Positions 4,450 through 64,000 of a stretch of DNA of 64,000 nucleotides are shown piece after piece. The stretch is taken from NCBI GenBank assembly GCA_011033025.1, contig WFMF01000106.1, positions 186,001-250,000 of the forward strand, in the 5' to 3' direction. This stretch comes from Beroe forskalii (taxonomy: Eukaryota; Ctenophora; Nuda; Beroida; Beroidae). Each line of letters starts with the position of its first letter. Within the stretch, counting starts at the first letter, position 1. The position numbers and the translations under genes are program-made. The notes beneath the pieces are model-generated. The model was not told the origin of the DNA, ran no database searches, and was given only the letters and a program-made list of their open reading frames with translations.

Positions 4450-7400
4450 CTAGTGCTGACAGTTCCTCAGCCTTGTGCTCCAGGAAGATTCGTTCCTCAT
4501 CGACACTCATGACGGCCTCTAGAGCAGTCTTGTCACAAGCATCTATCTCCTTGCGGAGATGGAAGATATCCACGTGATCAGGAAGAGGAAACTCTTTCTC
4601 TCCTGACGGGTTGTCACCATCAGTAAAGTGAGTGTGTGTTGTGAGGGGCAAAGGGGCTGGTCAGATATCTAACAGATTGAAATATCATAAAAAGTTGCTG
4701 ATTATGAACAATACAGATAGCAGAGCTTAGGTAAAATGGATGAAAAGCCGTTTCAATTCATTGACATGATATTCTAACAATATAGGTACAAAATCTAAAT
4801 AAATTTTGCGTTTTGTTATATTATTATGGGGGAAAGAATATCATTTGGATGATAAATGTCACAGGAGTTCAATCATTAAGTCAGTTTTCAAACTTACCAA
4901 GTAAAGTAAGCATGGTCGACTTGCCACAGCCATTAGGTCCAATGAGACCATACCTTCGGCCATAATTCAATTCAATGGATGTATCTTCTAAGATGTTGTC
5001 ACCATGATGTGTTATGGAAACGTTAGTCAACTGGATATCCCTGTTTCATTATTCATGGTAGAAGAATTAAGATGTACTGAATGCTTTTCAGTGAATATTA
5101 TTGCAATTCATGATGAAAGTGGTTACAATTTGGATGTTTACTTTGTCTTTATCATTCTTCTTAGGTTACATAAACTCGGTAAAGAATGATGTCAAACACT
5201 TAATAACATCTTACGAGTATTTTGGAGTATTTTCACACTGACCTGCTTTCTTTGTGGGATGACAGCACTCCAGTAGAAGAACATGCTGCTAGAAGTTGCT
5301 TGACATGTTCATCTTGAACAGTTTCCATCTTTAAGATGTTTTCAATGTCCACCTTTTCCTCCCCATTAGCATTACCCTGCAAACTCAAAATATAAATTAC
5401 AGTAGTATTTTCAGGCAAAATATAAAGAAAATCAGATTTAATTCTATATATGGCACTCTTGGTACACACACCTCTCTCGATCAACGAGATATACCTGCAT
5501 GTAGTGTGTAACAACACTACATGCAGGTATATACAATATACATGCAGGTATATCTCGTTGATCGAGAAAAACCAAGAGTGCCCTATAGAATTAAATCTAA
5601 TACAACAGCGGTACATAGCACTGTTAGCCACATATATAAGCGATCGAGAATTGACTGAAAGTAGGGGGAAGATAGCTCAATTGGTAGAGCACTGACCGGC
5701 AATCAGAAGTTGTGGGTTCAAGCCCCACTTGCCCTGCTCATTTTCAGATCACCAAGTTTGTATGTGTGACTAGAGGCAGGGTGAATTACAAATATAAAGA
5801 AAATCAATGTATGATTCATACATTGATTTTCTGTTGCTATAGTGAGAACCTGGACAGAATTGACAGACTAGTTTTGTTATTGAGTGCCAATTTGTGCAGG
5901 CCTGGGCAAAATGGTACCACAGGAACACGACAAAAATTAGCCTCCATTAGCCTCCATTAGCCTCCATGGAGGCTGAGTGGAGGCTGAGTGGAAAACTGGT
6001 GGGCCTAAGTGGAGGCTACAAAAATTAGCCTCCACGGAGGCTAGTGGAGGCATGAGGCTAATTTTTGAAAAATAGCCTCCACTATGGAGGCTATATTAGC
6101 CTCCACTAGCCTCCATTAGCCTCCACTAGCCTCCACTCAGCCTCCACTCAGCCTCCTCAGCCTCCATGGAGGCTAAATTTTTGGTTTAGCCTCCATTAGC
6201 CTCCACTAGCCTCCACTCAAGAATTAGCCTCCATTAGCCTCCACAGAAATTTAAAAAGTCATTTTTGTGGAGGCTAAAGCCTCCATATGGAGGCTAATGG
6301 AGGCTAATGGAGGCTGAGTGGAGGCTAAGTGGAGGCTGAGTGGAGCCTAAATCAATAAGCCTACAAAACACAAATTTCTTGCTGAAAATTGTGATTTATG
6401 TGTACTAATGTGAAAAACAATATATAGCTTCAAACTTTCAGACAGCTCCAACTGTCCTACACTCAGCCTCCACTAGGCTCCACTCAGCCTCCACTAGGCT
6501 CCACTCAGCCTCCACTAGGCTCCACTCAGCCTCCACTTAGCCTCCACTAGGCTCCACTCAGCCTCCACTAGGCTCCACTCAGGCCCCACTAGCCTCCACT
6601 AGGCTCCACTAGGCTCCACTAGGCTCCACTAGGCTCCACTGGCCACCACTAGGCTCCACTAGGCTCCACTAGCCTCCACTAGGATCCAATAGGCTCCACT
6701 AGCCTCCACTCAAGATTTAGCCTCCATTAGCCTCCACGGAAATTTAAAAAGTCATTTTTTGGATTCTATGGAAGCTATTTTGACAGTGCTAGTGGAGGCT
6801 ATAGCCTCCAAATGGAGGCTAAAATCATGAAAAAACACAGATAATATGCTAGCCTCCACAAAATTAAATTTATGTCATGTTTTTACAAAAAGAGTACATT
6901 TTGTAACATAGACCAAAGTCTAGTATTAGGCACCACTAAGCCTCCACTAGAATCCACTCAGCCTCCACTAGGCTCCACTAGGCTCCACTAGGCTTCACTC
7001 AGCCTCCACTAGGCTCCACTCAGCCTCCACTAGGCTCCACTCAGCCTCCACTAGCCTCCACGCAGCCTCCACTCAGCCTCCATTAGCCTCCACTCAGCCT
7101 CCACTAGGCTCCACTCAACCTCCACTAGCCTCCACTCAGCCTCCACTAGGCTCCATTCAGCTCCACTCAGCCTCCACTAGGCTCCACTTAGCTCCACTAG
7201 CCTAGTGGAGGCTAGTGGAGCCTAGAGGAGGCTAGTGGAGCCTAGTGGAGGCTGAGTGGAGCCTAGTGGAGCCTAGTGGAGGCTAGTGGAGGTTGAGTGG
7301 AGCTGAATGGAGCCTAGTGGAGGCTGAGTGGAGCCTAGTGGAGGCTAGTGGAGGTTGAGTGGAGCCTAGTGGAGGCTGAGTGGAGGCTAATGGAGGCTGA

Positions 7401-8782
7401 GTGGAGGCTGCGTGGAGGCTAGTGGAGGCTGAGTGGAGCCTAGTGGACGCTGAGTGGAGCCTAGTGGAGGCTGAGTGAAGCCTAGTGGAGCCTAGTGGAG
7501 GCTGAGTGGATTCTAGTGGAGGCTTAGTGGTGCCTAATACTAGACTTTGGTCTATGTTACAAAATGTACTCTTTTGTAAAAACATGACATAAATTTAATT
7601 TTGTGGAGGCTAGCATATTATCTGTGTTTTTCATGATTTTAGCCTCCATTTGGAGGCTATAGCCTCCACTAGCACTGTCAAAATAGCTTCCATAGAATCC
7701 AAAAATGACTTTTAAATTTCCGTGGAGGCTAATGGAGGCTAAATCTTGAGTGGAGGCTAGTGGAGGCTAAACCAAAAATTTAGCCTCCACGGAGGCTGAG
7801 TGGAGGCTGAGTGGAGGCTAGTGGAGCCTAGTGGAGGCTGGGTGGAGGCTAATTAGCCTCCATAGTGGAGGCTATTTTTCGAAAATTAGCCTCATGCCTA
7901 CACTAGCCTCCTTGGAGGCTAATTTTTGAAATTAGCCTCCACTTAGCCTCCACTCAGGCTCCACTCAGCCTCCACTCAGCCTCCATGGAGGCTAATGGAG
8001 GCTAATGGAGGCTAATTTTTGTCGTGTTCCTGTGGTACCATTTTGCCCAGGCCTGTAGCAATTAGAAAGAAAAGGCCTTCTAGGTCAAATGCATGAGTAC
8101 CCAATGCTCCCCAAACACAATTACAAGATAGAACAAAGAACATTTTATTTCATAAGCCTCAAGTTCATCAAGAATTTTAAGTTATCAATCTTTGATTAGT
8201 GCATTCATACTATGAATGCACTAATCAAAGATTGATTACTTAAAATTCTTGATGAACTTGAGGCTTATGAAATAAAATGTTCTATCTTGTAATTGTGTTT
8301 GGGGAGCATTGGGTACTCATGCATTCTTTCTAATTGCTACAGGCCTGCCCAAATTGGTACACAATAACAAAACTAGTCTGTCAATTCTGTCCAGGTTCTC
8401 ACTATAGCAACAGCTTGTGTGTTTCCTTTCCCCTAGAATTTGACAACCTTTGTTATGTTGAACATATGCCCTTATAGTGAAATGTCTCCTCTGATAACAC
8501 TCCAAATCATACTGCCTAACAAAAATCCAACATCTAATTATAGGTTACATGCCCATGAAAACGTCGTCAGTTTTAAATACATGTTACAGAAATGAGTACA
8601 ATATGTATATTGTTAGATTGTAAAATGGGATGAAAATTTGAAAGACTTTTTTCATTGATTAACTTGCTCCATTGAGCAAAAATAATTTGAAAATTGTTAC
8701 TCACATTTGCTTTGGGGGCAGCCTTAGCATTCTTCTTGCCTTGTTGCTGTTTTTGGGCCTTCTTAGCTCCTTTGGATGGCAT
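4450..8782 (-). CDS. ABCF2: ABCF2-like ATP-binding cassette protein, N-terminal four exons (partial)
   Basis: Soluble ABC-F ATPase with two nucleotide-binding domains and no membrane segment; the family works on ribosomes. Exons on the minus strand are 8705-8782, 5243-5376, 4898-5040 and 4450-4602, with AG/GT borders and compatible phases. The Met start at 8782 opens a Lys-rich N-terminus (MPSKGAKKAQKQQQGKK). Exon 3 carries the first Walker A motif GPNGCGKST at about residues 105-113. Exon 4 reads GEKEFPLPDHVDIFHL, closely matching the animal ABCF2 segment after Walker A. About 169 of roughly 620 expected residues are present. The signature motif, Walker B and second ATPase domain lie beyond the left edge or in exons I could not find. 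Intron 1 is 3.3 kb and holds the palindromic repeat at 5837-8414. Confidence 0.88.
5434..5598. repeat. Foldback MITE in ABCF2 intron 1
   Basis: Inverted arms of about 70 bp. The left arm begins AGATTTAATTCTATA and reaches CGAGATATACCTGCATGTA; the right arm mirrors it and ends TATAGAATTAAATCT. Shared inner blocks include GGCACTCTTGGT and TCTCGATCAACGAGATATACC. A small internal hairpin (GTAGTGTGTAACAACACTAC) sits in the centre. Short non-autonomous DNA element by structure; no target duplication was established. Confidence 0.7.
5665..5737 (+). repeat. tRNA-derived sequence (SINE head or tRNA pseudogene)
   Basis: An A-box-like D arm (TAGCTCAATTGGTAGAGC) and a perfect T arm with B box (GTGGG-TTCAAGC-CCCAC) are correctly spaced. 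The anticodon arm has only four pairs around the loop CCGGCAA, which lacks the invariant T before the anticodon. The acceptor stem is mismatched. These faults argue against a working tRNA and for a tRNA-derived SINE head or pseudogene. The sequence just downstream (to about 5800) could be SINE body, but I have no second copy to compare. Confidence 0.6.
5837..8414. repeat. Giant foldback element built of AGCCTCCACT / AGTGGAGGCT repeats
   Basis: The outer inverted arms (5837-5905 and 8341-8414) share CTGTTGCTATAGTGAGAACC and the bases after it. Next inward are paired blocks containing GGTACCA and CGTGTTCCTGTGG. Inside these, 5940-8030 is an array of about 10 bp units. The left half reads mainly AGCCTCCACT or AGGCTCCACT, the right half its complement, with the turn near 7200. 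Unique markers also pair, such as CATAGACCAAAGTCTAGTA near 6907 and its complement near 7540. The element lies wholly in ABCF2 intron 1. No transposase frame is present. Confidence 0.85.
8049..8348. repeat. 300 bp near-perfect hairpin inside the foldback element
   Basis: The arms start at CAGGCCTGTAGCAATTAGAA on both ends and fold around a centre at about 8212 (TGCATTCATACTATGAATGCA). The left arm carries about 17 extra bases (AAGGCCTTCTAGGTCAA). The match over the remaining 130 or so bases is almost complete. It interrupts the spacing between the CCTCC array and the right outer arm, so it probably arrived as a separate insertion. A diverged relative of one arm lies at about 9460-9560. Confidence 0.8.
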
Positions 8783-11541: not shown

Positions 11542-12894
11542 GTCCCTAAACTTTCCCAATTGAGCAATTGTCAGATAACAGACAACTTTCGAAATTCGAT
11601 TCGATAAAAAGAAAACATCATTCACGATTCGACACACGAAAGTGATTTCTCTTAGCAAAATGAAAAACTCATAAATCTGGACAACGTACTTGGTATGGAC
11701 TATCTGTCAGGTAACAGACAACCACAAGATTCTTAAAAATTGATCACTTTCGATAATAAAATATTAGATGCAGCAATCGAAATACAGAGTTAGAATATGA
11801 TGATAAAGCTGAAATCTGAATATCTATAAAGCAGCATTTCATACTTTCATATTTTCTTTCAGCCTTTAAGAGTATGAGGAACTCAAATCAAGAAAATTTA
11901 ACCAATTTGCGAAAACCAGTTTGTGTGCCCGTTAATAAATAACAAATAAGCATGCATTTCTCACCAAACTTTGTTAATGAAGCATCTGAATAGCAAATAT
12001 AGGAATCAAACTGATATGCAAAAATTTTGTCAAAAACTTTAAATTTAATTCTCATCCACCGAAACTCCAGAATGAGTTTAGGTATGTCATCCAATTCCAA
12101 ATAAATAAAGACATAAGGAAATTATCAGTTGAGCGAACAAAAAACGTATGATACTCACAGACAATACTAATTTATTTCTTCAGCCGGAGAAGGAAACCGT
12201 TTACATTTTACGTAATCATTTGTCGGCTAATCTCAACTCCCTCCCGCCCCTCGCAATCAATTTTACAGTAGCTGTATCAATAATGTAATGATAATAATAA
12301 CATGTAACCGTTAACGTAATCATTTGAAAAAACCCTCCCTCACTCGAGCTGATTGCGTAATATGTGAACAATCCCTTACACACAGTCTCTAAGGGATCGT
12401 TCACATATTACGTAATCACCTAGAGGGGGGAGGGGTTTCCGAAAGATTACGTTACATGTTATTGTAACGAATACAACTACTGTAAACTTGATTACGAGGG
12501 GGAGGGGGGTTGAAATCGGCCAAAAATTGATTACGTAATATGTCAACGATCCCTAACTGTAGTCACTACGTATCGAGATAACAGTTCTAAGTTAGCATTC
12601 GACTCATTGGTTTTCAGGTTCACTGCAGTTCTCGGGGGTAGCACCCCGGTAGAAACTATCGCTAGGTAACATGGAAGTCCGTATCCAGGGGGTTCGCGTC
12701 GTCTCCAAGATGTCGGCGTGCCGGTCCTTCCGGTGTTTATTGAGCGTACTCGCGTACGAAAACGGCTTGTGACAGATCTAGGGGAAATGGGAGCTGTTAC
12801 TTATCTCGTCTATTGATTTATAGTAGTGAGCAAACCCAAGCAAGGATTAGGGTCGATAATTTTCTATACTGTTAGCGACATAACTGTTAGATTG

Positions 12895-12900
12895 TTTATT
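12895..12900 (-). promoter_or_regulatory. Poly(A) signal AATAAA of the PWWP-IBD-zinc finger gene
   Basis: AATAAA on the minus strand lies about 29 bases after the stop codon at 12929. It is at the end of the duplicated repeat, and the sister copy at 2570-2581 carries nearly the same bases without a gene attached. Confidence 0.55.
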
Positions 12901-12928
12901 AAAGAAATTTTACACGAAACTGTGATTT

Positions 12929-49949: not shown

Positions 49950-50388
49950 AATGTGTCTTTTGTGAAAGAGGGAACTGTGCCCGGGGGCTGTTCAGGGGGG
50001 GGGGTCAGCCTCATGGTTGATGAGATGAGAGCTATGTGCCAGTTGAAGTATTTATAGTATTTCTGGGCTTTAAAGGATAGGAAGAGATAGCAAATGTGTG
50101 CCTTGGTGTCGGAGATCTTCTTAGGAGGTAGGTAGGTTCCTGGTTCTTATGTCTTTTTGTCAAGGAATCCGCCTGTGTGATAATAGATCACTTCGCACAG
50201 GCTGTTGTTAGAGACATACTCCTGTAGGACTGGGGCACAGAAGACCGAGAAGACCTGCCCTTCTGTTGTGGACAGATCCTCCGGACCGAGGACTTCCCAC
50301 TTTCCTTGGTTACCTTTTCTTGGTTGTCTTTTCTTGGCTGCCTTTTCTTGGTTGCCTTTTCTTGGTTACCTTTTCTTGGTTACGGTAC
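49950..50388 (-). CDS. Long exon, copy A, unrecognised family
   Basis: Starts after acceptor TTTTTTCTAATATAG at 50388 with 14 bp AACCAAGAAAAGGT units (Lys-rich coding). It then reads WEVLGPEDLSTTEGQVFSVF, CAPVLQEYVSNNSLCEVIYY, and after a one-base difference from copy B (a lost A near 50157) KISDTKAHICYLFLSFKAQK and YYKYFNWHIALISSTM. Copy B at 51890-52322 preserves the frame through the point where A slips. Family unknown to me. The cluster looks like tandem exon duplication with partial decay. Confidence 0.45.
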
Positions 50389-51500: not shown

Positions 51501-51889
51501 AACAATTGACCTGGATCTACCCTTTTCCATACTTTATAAGTCTATATTTCAATAATTTTATGAATACGCATTTAAAATTGGCAAAATCCCATCCCCCTTT
51601 CTAGTTTGTTGAAACAATTCAATCTTGATTGAGTGACTTACTGTAACACGCTAAGGATAAGGGTGGTTGTGAGTCCAGCGTAGCTCCACCTTTTCTTTGT
51701 TTACCTTTTGTTGGTAACCTATTCTTGGTTCACTTTTCTTGGTTACCTTTTCTTGGTTACCTATATTAGAAAAAACAATATTATAGATTTAAATGTCCAA
51801 GTCATGCATGAGTTAAGTCCGTGCGAGACGATTTCGCTGGGCAATGACTTGAAAATTTTTTTTTTGGAACTATCTTGTTGTTGGTACTT

Positions 51890-52322
51890 GCCTCATGTGT
51901 CATGGTTGATGAGATCAGAGCTATGTGCCAGTTGAAGTACTTGTAATATTTTTGAGCTTTGAAGGACAGGAAGAGATATCAAATGTGTGCCTTGGTGTCG
52001 GAGATCTTCTTAGGGGGTAGGTAAGTTCTTATGTCTTTTGTGTCAAGGAATTCGCCAGTGTGATAATTAATTACTTCGCAAAGGCTATTGTTAGAGACAT
52101 ACTCCTGTAGGACTGGGGCACAGAAAACCCAGAGAACCTGCCCTTCTGTAGTGGACAGATCCTCTGGACCGAGGACTTCCCACTTTTCTTGGTTACCTTT
52201 TCTTGGTTGTCTTTTCTTGGATGTCTTTTCATGGTTGTCTTTTCTTGGTTGTCTTTTCTTGGCTGCCTTTGCTTGGTTGCCTTTTCTTGGTTGCCTTTTC
52301 TTGGTTACATTTTCTTGGTTAC
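51890..52322 (-). CDS. Long exon, copy B, unrecognised family
   Basis: Same acceptor (TTTTTTCTAATATAG) and 14 bp units as copy A, here about ten units. Then EVLGPEDLSTTEGQVLWVFC, YVSNNSLCEVINYHTGEFLD and TKDIRTYLPPKKISDTKAHI, where an in-frame stop follows. Sequence beyond it matches copy A (KYFNWHIALISSTM). Each copy therefore has a different lesion. The 14 bp unit is not a multiple of three, so unit number changes the reading frame. Confidence 0.4.
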
Positions 52323-52559
52323 CTATATTAGAAAAAACAATATAGATTTAAATGTCCAAGTTATGCATGAGTTTAGTCCGTGCGAGACGATTTCGCTGGG
52401 CAATGACTTGAAGAACTTTTTGGAACTATCTTGTTGGTGCTTGTTCTTTCTTTTGTTGTATCTGTACCCCCATTTGCATTATTGTCAGCTAGTGAAGAGC
52501 TGTCTCTACTGTTGCCAGTGTAATCATGCATTAATTGGCTGTTGACTGTTGAGGACAGC

Positions 52560-56200: not shown

Positions 56201-56274
56201 TTGCAATGAGACGGTGTTTAATTTAAAACATACTAAGAGTTGGGCACGATTACATCGAATGCACTTGTCCCCTG

Positions 56275-58140
56275 AATACATATCATAATTGTGTACTACA
56301 TAGTTTTCGAGTTATCTCAAAGCAGCTGCTTTGGGATAGTGAAAACTACGATATCTCAAGTAACTTTGCCGGCCATGATGTCTCGGTAAGGTGTGTTACA
56401 TAATAAACCCTCAAGACACTCATGAACCGGTATGATAGTACAGATCTGTGAGCATTGAAGCGAAGAAACTTTCTAAAATTATCATCTCCAATATCTGAAC
56501 TTCTCAGGGCACAGTATCTGAATAAGAGTAGTTATTGGTCGTGTAACAGAGTGGAGTGCCGAAGGCACGACACGATGTTACACGACCAATAACGCTCTTA
56601 TTTTTCGCTATGGAGATAAGAGGGATCGATTGCCGTCAAAAAAGTTGACCTAAATGCATGCATTCATGCATTTTCATTCACGTGACTTAGTGCACCAATA
56701 GCAGTCCACTACGGACCTCCCCTGACCGTGTCTCGTGGCATTTGTGCTTCTACTAGTGACTTCAATGCTGCTACATTACTGGCTGATATGTCTGACACGT
56801 CAGTTCCACGTGCTACGCATAATTCACTCTAGAACACGTGACCGGTCAGGTTGAATGGAGGAGAAAATACGAGATTTATGGAACGGTAAACTCAGGAGTA
56901 TCAGCCGCGGTATTTGTAATTGATAGGATGTAAATGCAGTCACTTTTTACGCTTGCTCTTCACATTTGCTGTTGACTACTTATGTTTTAATGATTTTCGA
57001 CACCAACGTTCGCAGATAGTATCAATCATGTGCGCTCAACTACATACTTACATAAATCGTTTGATAGAACAAAAACATGCTAATTAAAATCTATTTGTCT
57101 CATGTCTATTGTAGTATTTCGGTCATCTACACCATTCGCAACGCCTATGATGAATGATCGTATCCATGAATGAATGAAGTTCCAATTATGACGTCAAAGG
57201 ATTAGGAATTAGGGTGTTTTTAAAAAGCAATCCCTACGTGATCACTAAGTCTTAATTTCGATACGTTTTCATAACCCGCCGACGAAAAATTCTACGTATA
57301 TAGCGTTTCGAGATTCTCCTATGACGCAATTATGCTCTTCCTCTCTCGTGGGGCATCCAGAATATTCATATTGGCCCTCATCCAAGTTTTTTACTCCATA
57401 GGTAATAGATATCATCATGATTCACGTACATGGGTGCAGTACCTTTTTTCTTTGAAATGAGCTCATGATCAGGTATCAAAGTAGCAAGTTGATAACATAC
57501 GACCGCCTATTTTCCGTGCGTGGATATTTGTAGAATTGCTATAGTAAGTTTGGAATCGGATTATTCTGCTGGGGCAGGTCAAGTCTTAGTCACGTGACAC
57601 GGTCAGGTGACATGTTCACGTGGTAACAGCCTACCACAAGGTTCGTCACGTGGTCACCACGTGACCTTTAGGTGGCTACCACGTGGCAGGCACGGCCAAC
57701 GGAGCGAAAAATAATTATTTTAATTGTGTATTGCAAAGTTATCGAGTTATCTCAATACAGCTAGAAACTATGTTATCCACGTCCAGTAGGTCTACATAAC
57801 ATGGAGTCTTGGTTTGACGTTAGAAATCAAGATTTCCCTGTTGTGTGTCCGTTTTTCTTTGCATTTGGCGACATTCGCACGTAAAATTCACATGTCGCCT
57901 TACTACATATTATAATTGTGTATTACATAGTTTTTGGCTTTCAAGACAGTGAAAACTATGCTGTCTATAGCCTTCGCACAGATATGCGTAACATGAAGTC
58001 CTGGTAAGGTGTGCGATGTAATAAACCCTCTACACATTGTACTCCTAAGACACTCTGCTAAGATAATTTATAGATGTGAGACGGAACTATCTATACCGTA
58101 ATAATTATCTCCGATATTCCAACTTCAAAGGCTACAGAAT
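56275..58140. repeat. Direct repeats around an inverted-end insert
   Basis: 56275-56530 and 57900-58140 are diverged direct repeats sharing ATAATTGTGTA, CATAGTTTT, GTGAAAACTA, GGTAAGGTGTG, and AATAAACCCTC. Between them lies a block beginning with a hairpin (GTTATTGGTCGTGTAACA paired with TGTTACACGACCAATAAC, 56532-56590). It ends near 57713 at GGAGCGAAAAATAA, which mirrors TTATTTTTCGCT near 56596. Confidence 0.5.
57588..57685. promoter_or_regulatory. Cluster of five CACGTG motifs
   Basis: CACGTG occurs five times in under 100 bases, mostly as (T)CACGTG(A/G) with CCACGTGG variants. CACGTG is the palindromic E-box bound by bHLH-zip factors. It lies about 1.1 kb upstream of the anoctamin-like start codon but inside the insert described above, so it may be transposon sequence and not a promoter. 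Confidence 0.35.
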
Positions 58141-58816
58141 CGTATCACAGAAATGTGATTTCAGCACACTATGGAAGGTCCGTCACTAGCATATTATGTA
58201 CTGAGAGATACCAGGAGATACAGGTGTTAACAAGGCTCTTTGCAAGGAGTTTTTCACGCCTGCTTTTTTCTGTGGTAGTACACTATCACTTGTACATGCG
58301 AGATATATCAGGTTACAAAGTCTAAAACCAATATATTATATTTGGAATGCATTTCCTTCGACCTTGTTCGTTTTAGGCAAGTGTTGAGTTTTTCTGTTCT
58401 GAACTTCTGCAAAAGACCCTTTTCTTTGAATTTGCATAACTCAATTCCGATTGTGATTGAGTGATTCCACGGATCGGTTCTTCTCAACAGTCATGTTACG
58501 TTTGAACTATTGCAATTCAATGAGCACTTAATGAGCATTGCGCACTCTGTGGCCTCTGCATTGCGGAATATGATCGTTTTCCATTTCCCAGATCTTCTTT
58601 GACTTGTACTTCAGTTTCGATTCAAGTTACATTGGCCTCATTTTGCAGTGTTAATATTTTGAAATATTTCTACCGCTTACAATTTACCGCCTGTCACTTC
58701 AACATTACCAACTGATTCAGAATAATCAGGTTATCCCTCCCAGCCATGACCCCTGACTTACACTTCAAACATTGCCTCATGTCTGCAACGATCAACATGT
58801 GATACAGAAGGATATA

Positions 58817-61800
58817 ATGTCTAGCAACCTCCCTAGCAACCTCCCTCGCAACCTCCCTAGCAACATTATCACTGATGATGAAGACATTCACAGTATCACG
58901 AGTCAACAGAGCATGGCCGAAGCAGACAGACGCTGGCGTCACGCTAAGAAGTCCATCCGGAGAAACTACAAACGGCATGCGATTCAGGTATTACGATTGT
59001 ATTGCATGGACGCAAGTCTCAATACGCATAGTTTTCGAGCGTCCTAAACATCTTACTTGCTAGCATCTCTAACTCAGCTCGTAGACTCAGCGTCTTATCT
59101 TCTTGTAAAATATAAAATATCTCATTGGCCTCGATGTGGATCTCGATATACGATAATAGTCCTTTCATTATGGACCCTTTTCCTATTGGAACCGATTCCT
59201 AGTCTGATGATAGACTGTACTCACAACATATTTTCTATTTCTTCTCTTACACGATATTCGATAATAAATGACGCTATTTACAACTTACATAATAAATTGT
59301 TTATGTTTCCATGCTTTCAGTTGCTGTTGTGGTCATGATTATGCACATATAATATAATATAGCTGCTGATTCCATTTCAGAACAAGGTCTTAACTCAAAT
59401 TCTGTAAGGAGAGAATATAAAGATCAATTAATGATAAATAATTAGTATTACCTTTTGTTATTTAATCTCTATGTGCCCAGATGCATAACTCTCTTTGTTT
59501 CTGTCATGTTTGGGAGATTATTCGTTAATCGGATTTGCAGCTTCAATCGTCATCAAGAACATTTGTTGACAAGTAGCAGTGCCCTTTTTGTCTTTCTATA
59601 ACGGTCTCACATAACCCAAACAACTGAACTAATTTATATTTTGTCGGGGGATAAATCAGAAAATCACTCTAAGTCATTCATTCTCGAACGTTAGTTTGGG
59701 ATATTGTTATATTAACCCCACTCCCTTCTTCCCTAACAACAAACGTTCTTCTTTCTCCTTAAACCCCTTCTTCCCTCTATTGGATAGGTCTTCTTCCTCC
59801 TTAACCCCCTTCTTCCCTCTATTGGACAGGTCTTATTCCTCCTTAACCCCCTTCTTCCCTCTATTGGACAGGTCTTATTCCTCCTTAACCCCCTTCTTCC
59901 CTCTATTGGACAGGTCTTATTCCTCCTTAACCCCCTTCTTCCCTCTATTGGACAGGTCTTCTTCCTCCATAACCCCCTTCTTCCCTCTATCGGACAGGTC
60001 TTCTTCCTCCTTAACCCCCTTCTTTCATCTATCGGACAGGTCTTCTTCCTCCTTAACCCCCTCCTTCCCTCTGTTGGACAGGTCTTCTTCCTCCATAACC
60101 CCTTCTTCACTCTATTGGATAGGTCTTCTTCCTCCTTAACCCCCTTCTTCCATCTATTGGACAGGTCTTGACGAACCTATCCACCTCCAAGTACACCCCC
60201 TGGACGTCAGACAAGAAAGTTGACTTCGTCCTCGTTTACAAACCCCTCAAATCCACCATGGACCCGGCGTCCGGATATGGTGAGTTGATGACGTCATGTT
60301 TAAGGATATGGTGAGTTGATGACGTCATGTTTCAGGATATGGTGAGTTGAAGACGTCATGTCTTAGGATATGGTGAGTTGATGACGTCATGTCTTAGGAT
60401 ATGGTGAGTTGATGACGTCATGTTTTAGGATATGGTGAGTTGATGACGTCATGTCTTAGGATATGGTGAGTTGATGACGTCATGTTTTAGGATATGGTGA
60501 GTTGATGACGTCATGTCTTAGGATATGGTGAGTTGATGACGTCATGTCTTAGGATATGGTGAGTTGATGACGTCATGTCTTAGGATATGGTGAGTTGATG
60601 ACGTCATGTCTTAGGATATGGTGAGTTGATGACGTCATGTCTTAGGATATGGTGAGTTGATGACGTCATGTCTTAGGATATGGTGAGTTGATGACGTCAT
60701 GTCTTAGGATATGGTGAGTAGATGACGTCATGTCTTAGGATATGGTGAGTTGATGACGTCATGTCTTAGGATATGGTGAGTTGATGACGTCATGTCTTAG
60801 GATAATATGGTGAGTTAATGACGTCATGTCTTAGGATAATATGGTGAGTAGATGACGTCATGTCTTAGGATATGGTGAGTTGATGACGTCCCACGTCCCG
60901 ATATGGTGAGTTGATGAGGTCACCCATTCATACACCGACCCGAGACCTCGCTTTATGACAAATCAGTGTATATTATAATCACTGTTAATAATTACTATTC
61001 AATCAGTTAAATGTCAGAGATAATTGATGTATAGATTTTATTGATAGTATCTCTTAATGGTATCTAAGTTGACGATTCCGGAACTTTCCCAATGTCTGAA
61101 CGGTGTCACTGCTACTACCTATTTCGTCTTCGAGGGCTGATTTCTCCGGGTACCCCTTAAGGTTTAATCCTGCTGTTAGAGGTCCGCGTCCATACGAACA
61201 CCCCATTCAATAATGCATCAGATGTGTCATTCTGAATTGTACAAACCGTACGAAGCAATTTATTTTGTTAGAATACATATGGTCTCTTGGTAATATTTTA
61301 TGGTCTCGTGGTAAAATAAGTGCTAAAGACGATGCCTAACAAGGCATGGTGATGCTGATAACTATAAATTAAGTTACTGATCATTTAATGTGTTGAATAC
61401 GCTGTTCCCAGCCATGATACACAGCCATGGTTATCTAACACTTTGAACCTGTCAGCTGTTACTGGTTTCATCCAGAAATCCTTCTCAGCAATAATTTCGG
61501 TGTGCGCGTTTTATATCCACACATCTTTTACAAAGAATTAAAAAAAAGGAAAACAAAAATTTGAAAAAAAAAGAAATTTGAAAAAAGAAAATTTGGATCT
61601 GAAAACTTTCTAATTTTTAGTCTCCATCCTGAACCCCGATTGGATCTGAAAAACTTTCTCTAATTTTTAAGGATTTGCCTATATTTTATGTATTTTGTTC
61701 TTCTAAAATTTCTAGTCTCCATATTTGGTCTTCCCAGTGATTGTGTCTTGTGAAGCCCGATTAATGACAAAACGGAATTGGGCTAAACACTTAATACTAA

Positions 61801-62669
61801 AATACCAATTTTCTGAATAAAAACTAAATTACCTGGTTTATGACAATATTGACTTACTGTTTGATGTTATATAAATCATAACATTCTTCATTTGGTCGTT
61901 TATTACTGCATTACGCTTATTCCGGAAATTTGACGGAATTTCCCCACCCATGAATATTAGCTTGAATTTTGCCTTTTGAAGGGTCTTCGTCACCTCACGC
62001 ACCAGAGACATACGTCCGTCATCTAAGGTCTTTGGCGGTGCAGGGAAAGAGAGATGTTCCCGAACTTTTTCAAGCCCCTTTTGGGTCTTGACCTTGTTGT
62101 GCTTTTAACAATATATCAGTAAGCCGTGTCTTACAAACCGTTTCCCAGTTGATCCTGACCCTCGTCCCATGGACAAGGAGGACGTGGCTGAAATGTCGAT
62201 GGGAGAATCGGCAGATAAAACTGCAACCATGAGGGTGCAGTTTATCAATCTCCTCAGGGTCAACGGACTCGAGATTGAGATTGAGGTATGCGCGGATAGG
62301 GGAAAATATACGCATTATCTTTAATTGTCTAGTATTTTCCCTATTTTATCTACATACTACAGTACAAAGGTACTGTAAAATGATCGATCATGTTTGTGCT
62401 CTTATTTGATTCAAATTGTGGACTTATGCTAGAGCCTATTCGAAGTTGGTTACTGGAATCAATTTCCGAGCTTAGCACCGAGTTTCAAATCTTCTACCAG
62501 GTTTTCTTGCGTTGAATTCTTCTCGATTTTAATAAAAAGTTCGATTTGTTTCAGAACTTCTCCTCCAAGTTCGAGGAGTACAGAGCAATAAAGATCTGCG
62601 GATCTAACTTTGCCATGGACACCTGGGCCGAGAAATTCCTGCTCATGAAGCCGGTCGAACCACCCTACG
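58817..62669 (+). CDS. Anoctamin (TMEM16) family, N-terminal exons (partial)
   Basis: Anoctamins are membrane calcium-activated chloride channels or lipid scramblases. Exons: 58817-58987, 60165-60279, 62149-62285, 62555-62669; all phases match and the gene continues past the right edge. The Met start opens a stretch with four near-repeats of (S/R)NLP, coded by 12 bp DNA repeats, then acidic and basic segments. Residues 75-82 are KVDFVLVY, the hallmark of the cytoplasmic dimerisation domain. MRVQFINLLRVNGLEIEIE fits the following R..F...L...GLE.E step, and IKICGSNFAMDTWAEKFLLM fits the F.K...W..L..(Y)AE..L.K step. About 179 residues are present, with no transmembrane exon in the window. Exon 2 is flanked on both sides by splice-site minisatellites. 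Confidence 0.85.
59733..60164 (+). repeat. Minisatellite repeating the 3' splice site of anoctamin exon 2
   Basis: About ten units of roughly 42 bp. Each contains CTTCTTCCCTCTATTGGACAG followed by GTCTT: a pyrimidine tract, CAG, and the first five bases of the exon. The last unit is the acceptor used at 60164/60165. A few units read GATAG or TCGGACAG. Open frames on both strands (RSSSSLTPFFPLLD and its antisense) come from the period of 42, a multiple of three. Confidence 0.9.
60272..60915 (+). repeat. Minisatellite repeating the 5' splice site of anoctamin exon 2
   Basis: The exon ends GGATATG and the intron begins GTGAGTTGATGACGTCATG. A 31 bp unit made of exactly these bases plus TCTTA is repeated, giving 21 GGTGAGT motifs from 60279 to about 60908. 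Each unit also holds the palindrome TGACGTCA (CRE-like) and, at its junction, CTTAG|GATATG, which resembles a 3' splice site. Units are highly uniform, suggesting recent expansion. Confidence 0.93.
60916..62148. other. Anoctamin intron 2, remainder
   Basis: No exon or mobile element supported. 61540-61690 has A-rich low-complexity DNA in which the phrase GGATCTGAAAA(A)CTTTCT is repeated twice. Confidence 0.45.
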
Positions 62670-62679
62670 GTAATAAGTC

Positions 62680-63125
62680 ATCCAATCAGCACGCATAATA
62701 CTCTGTTACTGCTCGCTGATTGGTTAACCAATAACACAAGATATATCCATTTATTGATGTAATAATTTAACTATAAAGCCTATCATATTTGTCATATTCC
62801 TGAATGCTATGCAAATAGCTTTGACATCGACCTAAATGGGCTCGGCCAGGCCCGTTTCGCACCGAGGAATATCCCCATCGATTTTTCTTTTCGTTATGTG
62901 AACGTATTGTTCTGACAAACCACCTACTTCTATTCTTGGTCCAATCAATGGTTATAACCATAAATCCAATCAGAGCGGAGAATACTCTCTTCCTGCCCGA
63001 AGATTGGTTTATCAATAATATACTGATAATTATCCTATTTTTCTGATTAATTTGCAGATATTTATAATTGATACTTAAATATAAAATATCGCTTTAAATG
63101 GGTTCGCCAGGCCCCTTTCTTTTAG
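62680..63125. repeat. Tandem duplicate of about 245 bp in anoctamin intron 4
   Basis: CCAATCAG(C/A)...GAATACTCT-like blocks followed by GATTGGTTAACCAATA or GATTGGTTTATCAATA, and then AAATGGG(C/T)TCG(G)CCAGGCCC, occur at 62678-62860 and again at 62940-63120. The copies are diverged. Confidence 0.5.
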
Positions 63126-64000
63126 CTTTCATTGCTGTTTTCGTGTCCTGTCTCTGGAAAACCATCTGCTATTATTCTTGAACCATCTTAACATCACCAT
63201 GTTGACATGAACATGTCTTCAACATCATAATATTCCATGAAGTATTTGGATGGGTATGTATCTAATGTTATCTAATGATAATAATCAGCTGCTTGTGTAT
63301 AAACTATAATGTAATCCTTTGAATAAACTATTATAAATCTCCATGATGCGGAATACTTAGAACAGTCATAAATCTGAGTTCGTGCGTACAGTATAATCTT
63401 GTTCTGTCTGGAGTTTTCTTTTTGAGAATACGATATCACTGCAAATTATCAGTTACAATAGTACAGGGAAAAACCTCACACTTTTAAACACTTACCGGTA
63501 TGATCTGGGAAATTCCTGTTGTTTCATATTATTTGATGTTTTATCTAATAGATTACAGTCTGCAATAAGCTCAATAGTTACAAAATTCGTAGTTCAAGTC
63601 AATATTATTAATGAAGAAGTGTATTGTTAGACGGATTTGTCGGCCATGATCAGTGGAGGCCAGATTCTTTTGTCTCCTTTAGTGCTCTTTCATAATTTTT
63701 TTAAGTTCTTTAAACCTTTGATGAATTGTCTGATATTCTGGTTGAGAAGCAATCGCTTGATGTGCAGACTTGACAAGGATGGAGTTATAATGCTGGGGGT
63801 AGGGGCCATACCTCAGTTAGAAGAGTTTTGTGGGTGGCATTCTGAAATTATTGTCTCATTGGACTATTTAATAATACCATGATACTTTTATTTGTTTCCC
63901 TAAGTAGCTAAGTGTCCAAAAGAGTGGAAACTGGGTGCTCTATGTCAAGGCTTTTTCTTGATAATTCTGCTCTCCGACTCATAAATTAACTTCGTTATCA
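63126..64000. other. Right edge, no exon recognised
   Basis: Presumed anoctamin intron. An open frame at 63637-63882 (plus) has no anoctamin-like or other recognisable signature. Confidence 0.35.

Follow-up and report, generated by a model that had tools for sequence, protein, structure and literature searches.

Minisatellites made of its own splice-border sequences flank an anoctamin exon in the ctenophore Beroe forskalii

Anoctamin gene and exon borders

The window analyzed here is a 64-kb stretch of the Beroe forskalii assembly (216 Mb, 1,134 contigs), corresponding to bases 186001–250000 of contig C66. This contig carries an anoctamin gene (ANO) as a tail-to-tail inverted pair spanning ~61 kb in total (C66:242271–275298 and 303284–277880), of which the first copy, gene A, starts within the window (56271–64000). 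The second detected exon of this copy, with a length of 115 nt (VLTNLSTSKYTPWTSDKKVDFVLVYKPLKSTMDPASGY), is located on the forward strand at 60165–60279, as indicated by its translation, a spliced-frame model against a Mnemiopsis protein, and an Anoct_dimer match. On the same strand, tblastn and the spliced-frame model placed a preceding exon at 58883–58987, the start of which is only that of the protein match, and two following exons at 62149–62285 and 62555–62669. Borders at 60165 and 60279 kept the reading frame with the neighbouring exons and gave the best fit to the Mnemiopsis orthologue in the splice model, and the acceptor that this model used (before 60165) and its donor (at 60280) are the innermost copies of the two tandem arrays described below.

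Among the four pieces of the gene queried against Pfam, one, a downstream exon, gave an Anoctamin match with an E-value of 2.9e-25, and one matched neither Anoctamin nor the dimerisation domain. Exons 1–3 matched Anoct_dimer over residues 40–106 (E 0.0011; 19.3 bits, below the cut-off of 22), another piece matched the anoctamin dimerisation domain, also below the cut-off (E 0.0036), and a PDB sequence search with exons 1–3 returned no match up to an E-value of 10. When a rough concatenation of the exons was used as the query, six of the seven protein relatives were ctenophore anoctamins from Mnemiopsis leidyi and Bolinopsis microptera (46–63% identity over 65–85% of the query), and the seventh was a tardigrade protein with 31% identity. 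The reading frame, the Mnemiopsis fit, the Pfam results, and the ctenophore matches together bear out the assignment of the exon to an anoctamin gene, which the first-pass annotation of this DNA had made.

Tandem arrays at both borders of the exon

Upstream of the exon, Tandem Repeats Finder (TRF) detected a minisatellite on the forward strand at 59747–60169 (42 bp × 10.1 copies, 93% matches), which unit tables and motif counts resolved into 10 units. A full unit consists of a TTAAC or ATAAC motif, which resembles a branch-point consensus, a pyrimidine tract, and ACAG or ATAG, after which come the five initial exon bases, GTCTT. Exact counting in the interval 59733–60960 gave 10 AG/GTCTT acceptors (the slash marks the junction), eight with GGACAG and two with GGATAG.

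The second minisatellite (60273–60922, forward strand) comprises 21 units according to TRF (31 bp × 20.8 copies, 95% matches), the unit list, and the motif counts. The 31-bp unit contains GGATATG, i.e., the last seven bases of the exon, followed by the donor GTGAGT, the palindrome ATGACGTCAT in 18 units, and then AG in 19; the spacing is mostly 31 bp, with two donor units of 34 bp. In the interval given above, GGTGAGT occurs 21 times and the exact string GGATATG/GTGAGTTG 17 times, while CTTAG/G was counted 15 times and any AG/GATA junction 19 times. RNA folding of 60160–60420 yielded a z-score of −0.36, i.e., no signal of special structure.

The unit contents and TRF results confirm that the arrays flanking the exon are made of its own border sequences, and that these arrays are tandem repeats rather than a product of chance is beyond doubt. 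The approximately ten 42-bp units ending in the 3′ splice site of the exon, as first annotated, stand on the TRF output, unit tables, and exact counts, and the number of 21 given for its 5′ splice site holds for GGTGAGT, with 17 in the exact longer form; the accompanying statement that every 31-bp unit carries a CTTAG/G junction was overstated, given the counts of 15 for CTTAG/G and 19 for any AG/GATA.

Other repeats were also present in the window. Two minisatellites with reverse-complementary units (based on CCACTAG and CTAGTGG) lie head to head at 6927–7203 and 7199–7536 and form a long inverted repeat, three arrays (50300–50383, 51688–51762, and 52183–52324) share a nearly identical 14-bp unit (CTTTTCTTGGTTAC), and a segmental duplication links 1230–2584 with 11542–12903 at 94.9% identity.

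Arrays in the paralogous gene copy

The paralogue (gene B) carries its copy of the second exon on the opposite strand at C66:300606–300731, 54 kb away, with 97% identity over 126 bases. The two exon copies differ at one of the first 112 bases and at two of the last three, and the flanking blocks near the exon are 86–92% identical. Both arrays are present in the paralogue, with five units of the 42-bp type (44, 42, 42, 43, and 42 bp) and approximately two 31-bp units, so that the unit numbers in A and B are 10 vs. 5 and 21 vs. ~2, respectively, as a comparison between paralogues represented by a single haplotype each. Since unit A10 is one base away from units B2 and B3 of the paralogue, the arrays would most simply be older than the gene duplication and have changed in unit number afterward, although gene conversion between the paralogues could mimic an old array.

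The two gene copies also differ at further acceptors. In paralogue B, the acceptor of a later exon falls within a 140-bp repeat with 3.9 copies (C66:283686–284234), the extra copies of which hold 63–65 exon bases, and paralogue A contains only one copy of this border unit; the restriction of this array to B means that such arrays arise or vanish within the age of the duplicate. A repeat of ~56 bp, with about three units in B compared with two in A, spans another acceptor.

Repeats at splice borders of other genes

Border repeats were read by eye at 49 loci retrieved by myosin-head and ABC-transporter matches and at ten ion-channel loci. Border-spanning repeats were found in myosin at one acceptor (L021, 34 bp × 7.9) and one donor (L034, 22 bp × 2.2), in ABC transporters at two acceptors (L053, 45 bp × 2.4; L058, 21 bp × 1.9 by TRF and approximately four degenerate units by eye), and in an ion channel at one acceptor (L070, read by eye as two copies). 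Other arrays, for instance at L039, L041, and L052, occur close to a border but do not repeat it. At C225:1041609–1042105, L027 and L028 are neighbouring myosin exons that both match one region of the motor domain, a pattern that alternative exons would show.

The first-pass annotation had proposed that exon borders seeded the tandem duplications. In this explanation, borders would actively promote duplication, e.g., through structures formed during transcription or splicing factors bound to nascent RNA, and border arrays should be over-represented. We took a 25- or 30-base segment across each border and scored its recurrence within 200 or 400 bases under five settings. The sample comprised 102 borders, i.e., 68 from the family loci (49) and the ion-channel matches (13, in ten loci), and 34 from ANO gene A, which was itself chosen for its arrays; a fixed rule dropped 56 candidate borders from the family and ion-channel loci, two unsettled ANO introns (6 and 15) were omitted, and no model existed for intron 5. 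Across the five settings, 5–9 of the 102 borders (5–9%) were repeated nearby, compared with 299–403 of 4,080 intronic segments (7–10%) and 1–5 of 306 exon-interior segments. Borders therefore showed no excess over intron in the same loci (P 0.44–0.87), where the Fisher P values are rough because the control segments overlap and where, by a rough estimate, an excess below about two-fold would be missed with 102 borders. A first run on fewer loci had given 4 of 61 and 3 of 36 repeated borders.

Several entries in this count need qualification. Among the repeated borders, those of L027/L028 represent similar neighbouring exons and not border arrays, the case of L040 is weak, and the ANO acceptor at C66:268597 was repeated in one setting only. 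Under the fixed rule, the L053 acceptor fell 67 bases off the one read by eye, the L034 donor was excluded, and L058 went uncounted. As the border rate equals the intronic rate, the sampled splice borders behave like intron.

A genome-wide search for three tandem GGTGAGT motifs likewise revealed no excess of donor arrays, with 3,247 overlapping places vs. 5,969 for the reversed-pattern control, although this is a weak test in which overlapping places in long satellites swell the counts. The contig start at C17:225–2941 is a satellite with units of ~32 bp that contain GGTGAGT, and it accounts for most of the donor-array places listed, which were the first ones.

The evidence in favour of seeding comes from gene A itself, where one exon has arrays at both borders. 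When the arrays of this gene were placed at random under four settings, with introns 6 and 15 included, P was 0.0017–0.08 for the match to 3 of 38 borders and 0.0003–0.0083 for any exon matched on both sides, and these values are post hoc because the gene was picked for its arrays. They leave room for a mild border preference. If 5–9% of borders are affected independently, approximately 0.3–0.8% of exons would be two-sided, and one such exon would be expected somewhere in the genome. The statement that two arrays on one exon are hard to put down to chance fits the small P values within gene A and is too strong once several percent of borders are seen to be repeated. Overall, a special role of borders in seeding duplication was not supported, as their repetition rate matched that of the intronic control, and we regard active seeding as improbable. 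The lack of an excess at borders over intronic positions, the outcome that the first-pass annotation had itself set against its proposal, was obtained at the scale of the sample (102 borders) and not of the genome.

Reading frame and predicted use of the spare sites

Each of the 21 donors of the exon was joined in turn to the beginning of exon 3. Only donor 1 kept the frame, and the remaining 20 (donors 2–21) all led to a stop at residue 50, with numbering from the first residue of the exon. On the acceptor side, translation from all ten acceptors showed open reading for two (60165 and 60123). The last 42-bp unit (60123–60164, forward strand) provides the sole alternative acceptor in frame, which adds VFFLLNPLLPSIGQ, and the 41-bp unit before it (60082–60122, forward strand) breaks the frame for the eight acceptors further upstream. 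At the corresponding position, the array of the paralogue contains a 43-bp unit, which also breaks the frame and leaves two of five acceptors with open reading. In each paralogue, one upstream acceptor would thus add 14 residues in frame, and a form with these 14 residues is possible for each; neither of the predicted proteins, P0002 from Mnemiopsis and P0005 from Bolinopsis, contains a 14-residue insert at that place.

These translations bear on the suggestion that the spare acceptors and donors serve splicing, either by buffering the exon or by giving regulated isoforms. Such a role would accord with the GGTGAGT common to all 21 donors, the top rank of this donor among the 19 modelled donors of the gene by a simple score, the resemblance of the full 42-bp unit to a complete acceptor, and the in-frame addition in both paralogues. 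However, with 20 of 21 donors leading to a stop and eight of ten acceptors off frame, the arrays cannot make many productive isoforms, and the absence of the insert from both predicted ctenophore proteins and the unequal unit numbers of the paralogues also argue against a splicing role. Buffering or isoform production through the donors was rejected on the basis of the stop shared by all 20 outer copies, with the one in-frame acceptor left as a possible exception. The useful variant transcripts and the buffering envisaged at first were accordingly not supported by the frame results, and we consider them still less probable than border-driven duplication. We infer that splicing would use the innermost sites and that misspliced messages would be destroyed.

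The retention of the 31-bp array as an intronic enhancer made of clustered bZIP/CREB-type sites, which we presume ATGACGTCAT/TGACGTCA to be, would fit the 18 copies of ATGACGTCAT in the array and the ~8.5-fold over-representation of TGACGTCA outside it (32 occurrences against an expectation of 3.8 across 339 kb, in loci that overlap in part), but is very improbable given that the paralogue retains only about two 31-bp units and that several TGACGTCA places elsewhere have common flanks, like dispersed repeats.

Discussion

Minisatellite-like tandem repeats that span exon–intron borders and carry part of the exon have been described in amphioxus under the name of ‘mirages’ (PMC3087553, PMC3902484). 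We consider it most likely, with a probability of roughly 0.8, that the two arrays reported here are minisatellites of this type, and that a dense turnover of intronic repeats in this genome reaches splice borders and is tolerated there. Short tandem duplications would by accident have taken in a splice border together with a few exon bases, and the duplicated units would then have expanded and contracted through ordinary repeat turnover, which we infer to be the origin of both arrays. The innermost copy beside the exon would preserve the true splice site, and the spare copies would sit in the intron, where their use would nearly always break the reading frame. The arrays may be tolerated because the adjoining copy keeps the true site and the spare copies are intronic and mostly frame-breaking. 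Arrays at splice borders need not imply border-driven duplication or function.

A broader proposal is that gene structure in this ctenophore commonly evolves through the turnover of border minisatellites, which would affect several percent of borders, come and go within the age of a gene duplicate, and supply ready-made acceptor–donor cassettes for shifts of exon edges and the birth of introns. We put this forward only tentatively and consider it rather doubtful; if true, the amphioxus mirages would be one instance of an animal-wide process. Two features of the locus lend themselves to further work, namely, a natural test of how the spliceosome selects a single donor among 21 that are alike and a single acceptor among ten that are nearly identical, and a ready comparison in the paralogue pair with its 10/21 vs. 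5/~2 units.

Comparison with known systems

Among related phenomena, intronic minisatellites have reportedly been linked to alternative splicing in Caenorhabditis elegans (PMC4039745), and the likeness to the present arrays lies in their being intronic minisatellites. A second relative is the gain of introns by tandem duplication of AGGT-type segments, in which, according to one report (PMC3087553), the duplicated DNA contains an acceptor-like AG and a donor; a potato case is reported in PMC4974935. The corresponding feature here is the AG located six bases before GTGAGT in most 31-bp units, whereas our arrays differ in that they lie inside existing introns, with no new intron seen. The proposal that such repeats could seed new introns, made for the present arrays by the first-pass annotation, has already been put forward for amphioxus mirages (PMC3087553).

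The closest relatives are the mirages themselves. In the two amphioxus reports, they are described for Adh3, troponin C, and the globins BflGb6 and BflGb9, with similar repeats in PGBD5; either border can be affected, many units carry AG/GT signals, unit numbers vary between haplotypes, and splicing is reported to be undisturbed (PMC3087553, PMC3902484). The unit lengths given there are 10–72 bp in Adh3 and 150–160 bp in the globins (PMC3087553), a reported range that includes our 42- and 31-bp units, and the other border repeats in this genome measure 21–140 bp. The units likewise carry exon sequence, GTCTT in the 42-bp array and GGATATG in the 31-bp array, and the 5′ and 3′ borders that can each be duplicated in the amphioxus accounts are here both duplicated on one exon. 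The differences are the host, a ctenophore rather than a cephalochordate, which is a matter of where the pattern was reported and not a structural criterion; the long arrays at both borders of one exon (10 and 21 units); the variation in unit number, which is between paralogues and not alleles; and splicing, which was judged here by frame and orthologue. Judging by titles and the opening of abstracts, none of the listed open-licence literature matches reports border minisatellites in ctenophores, a group argued in one study to be sister to other animals (PMC10232365). Mirages, which were found in the searched literature for amphioxus only, are now placed in a ctenophore, and, as far as searched, this exon represents an unusually clear two-sided case and a new phylum for a known pattern.
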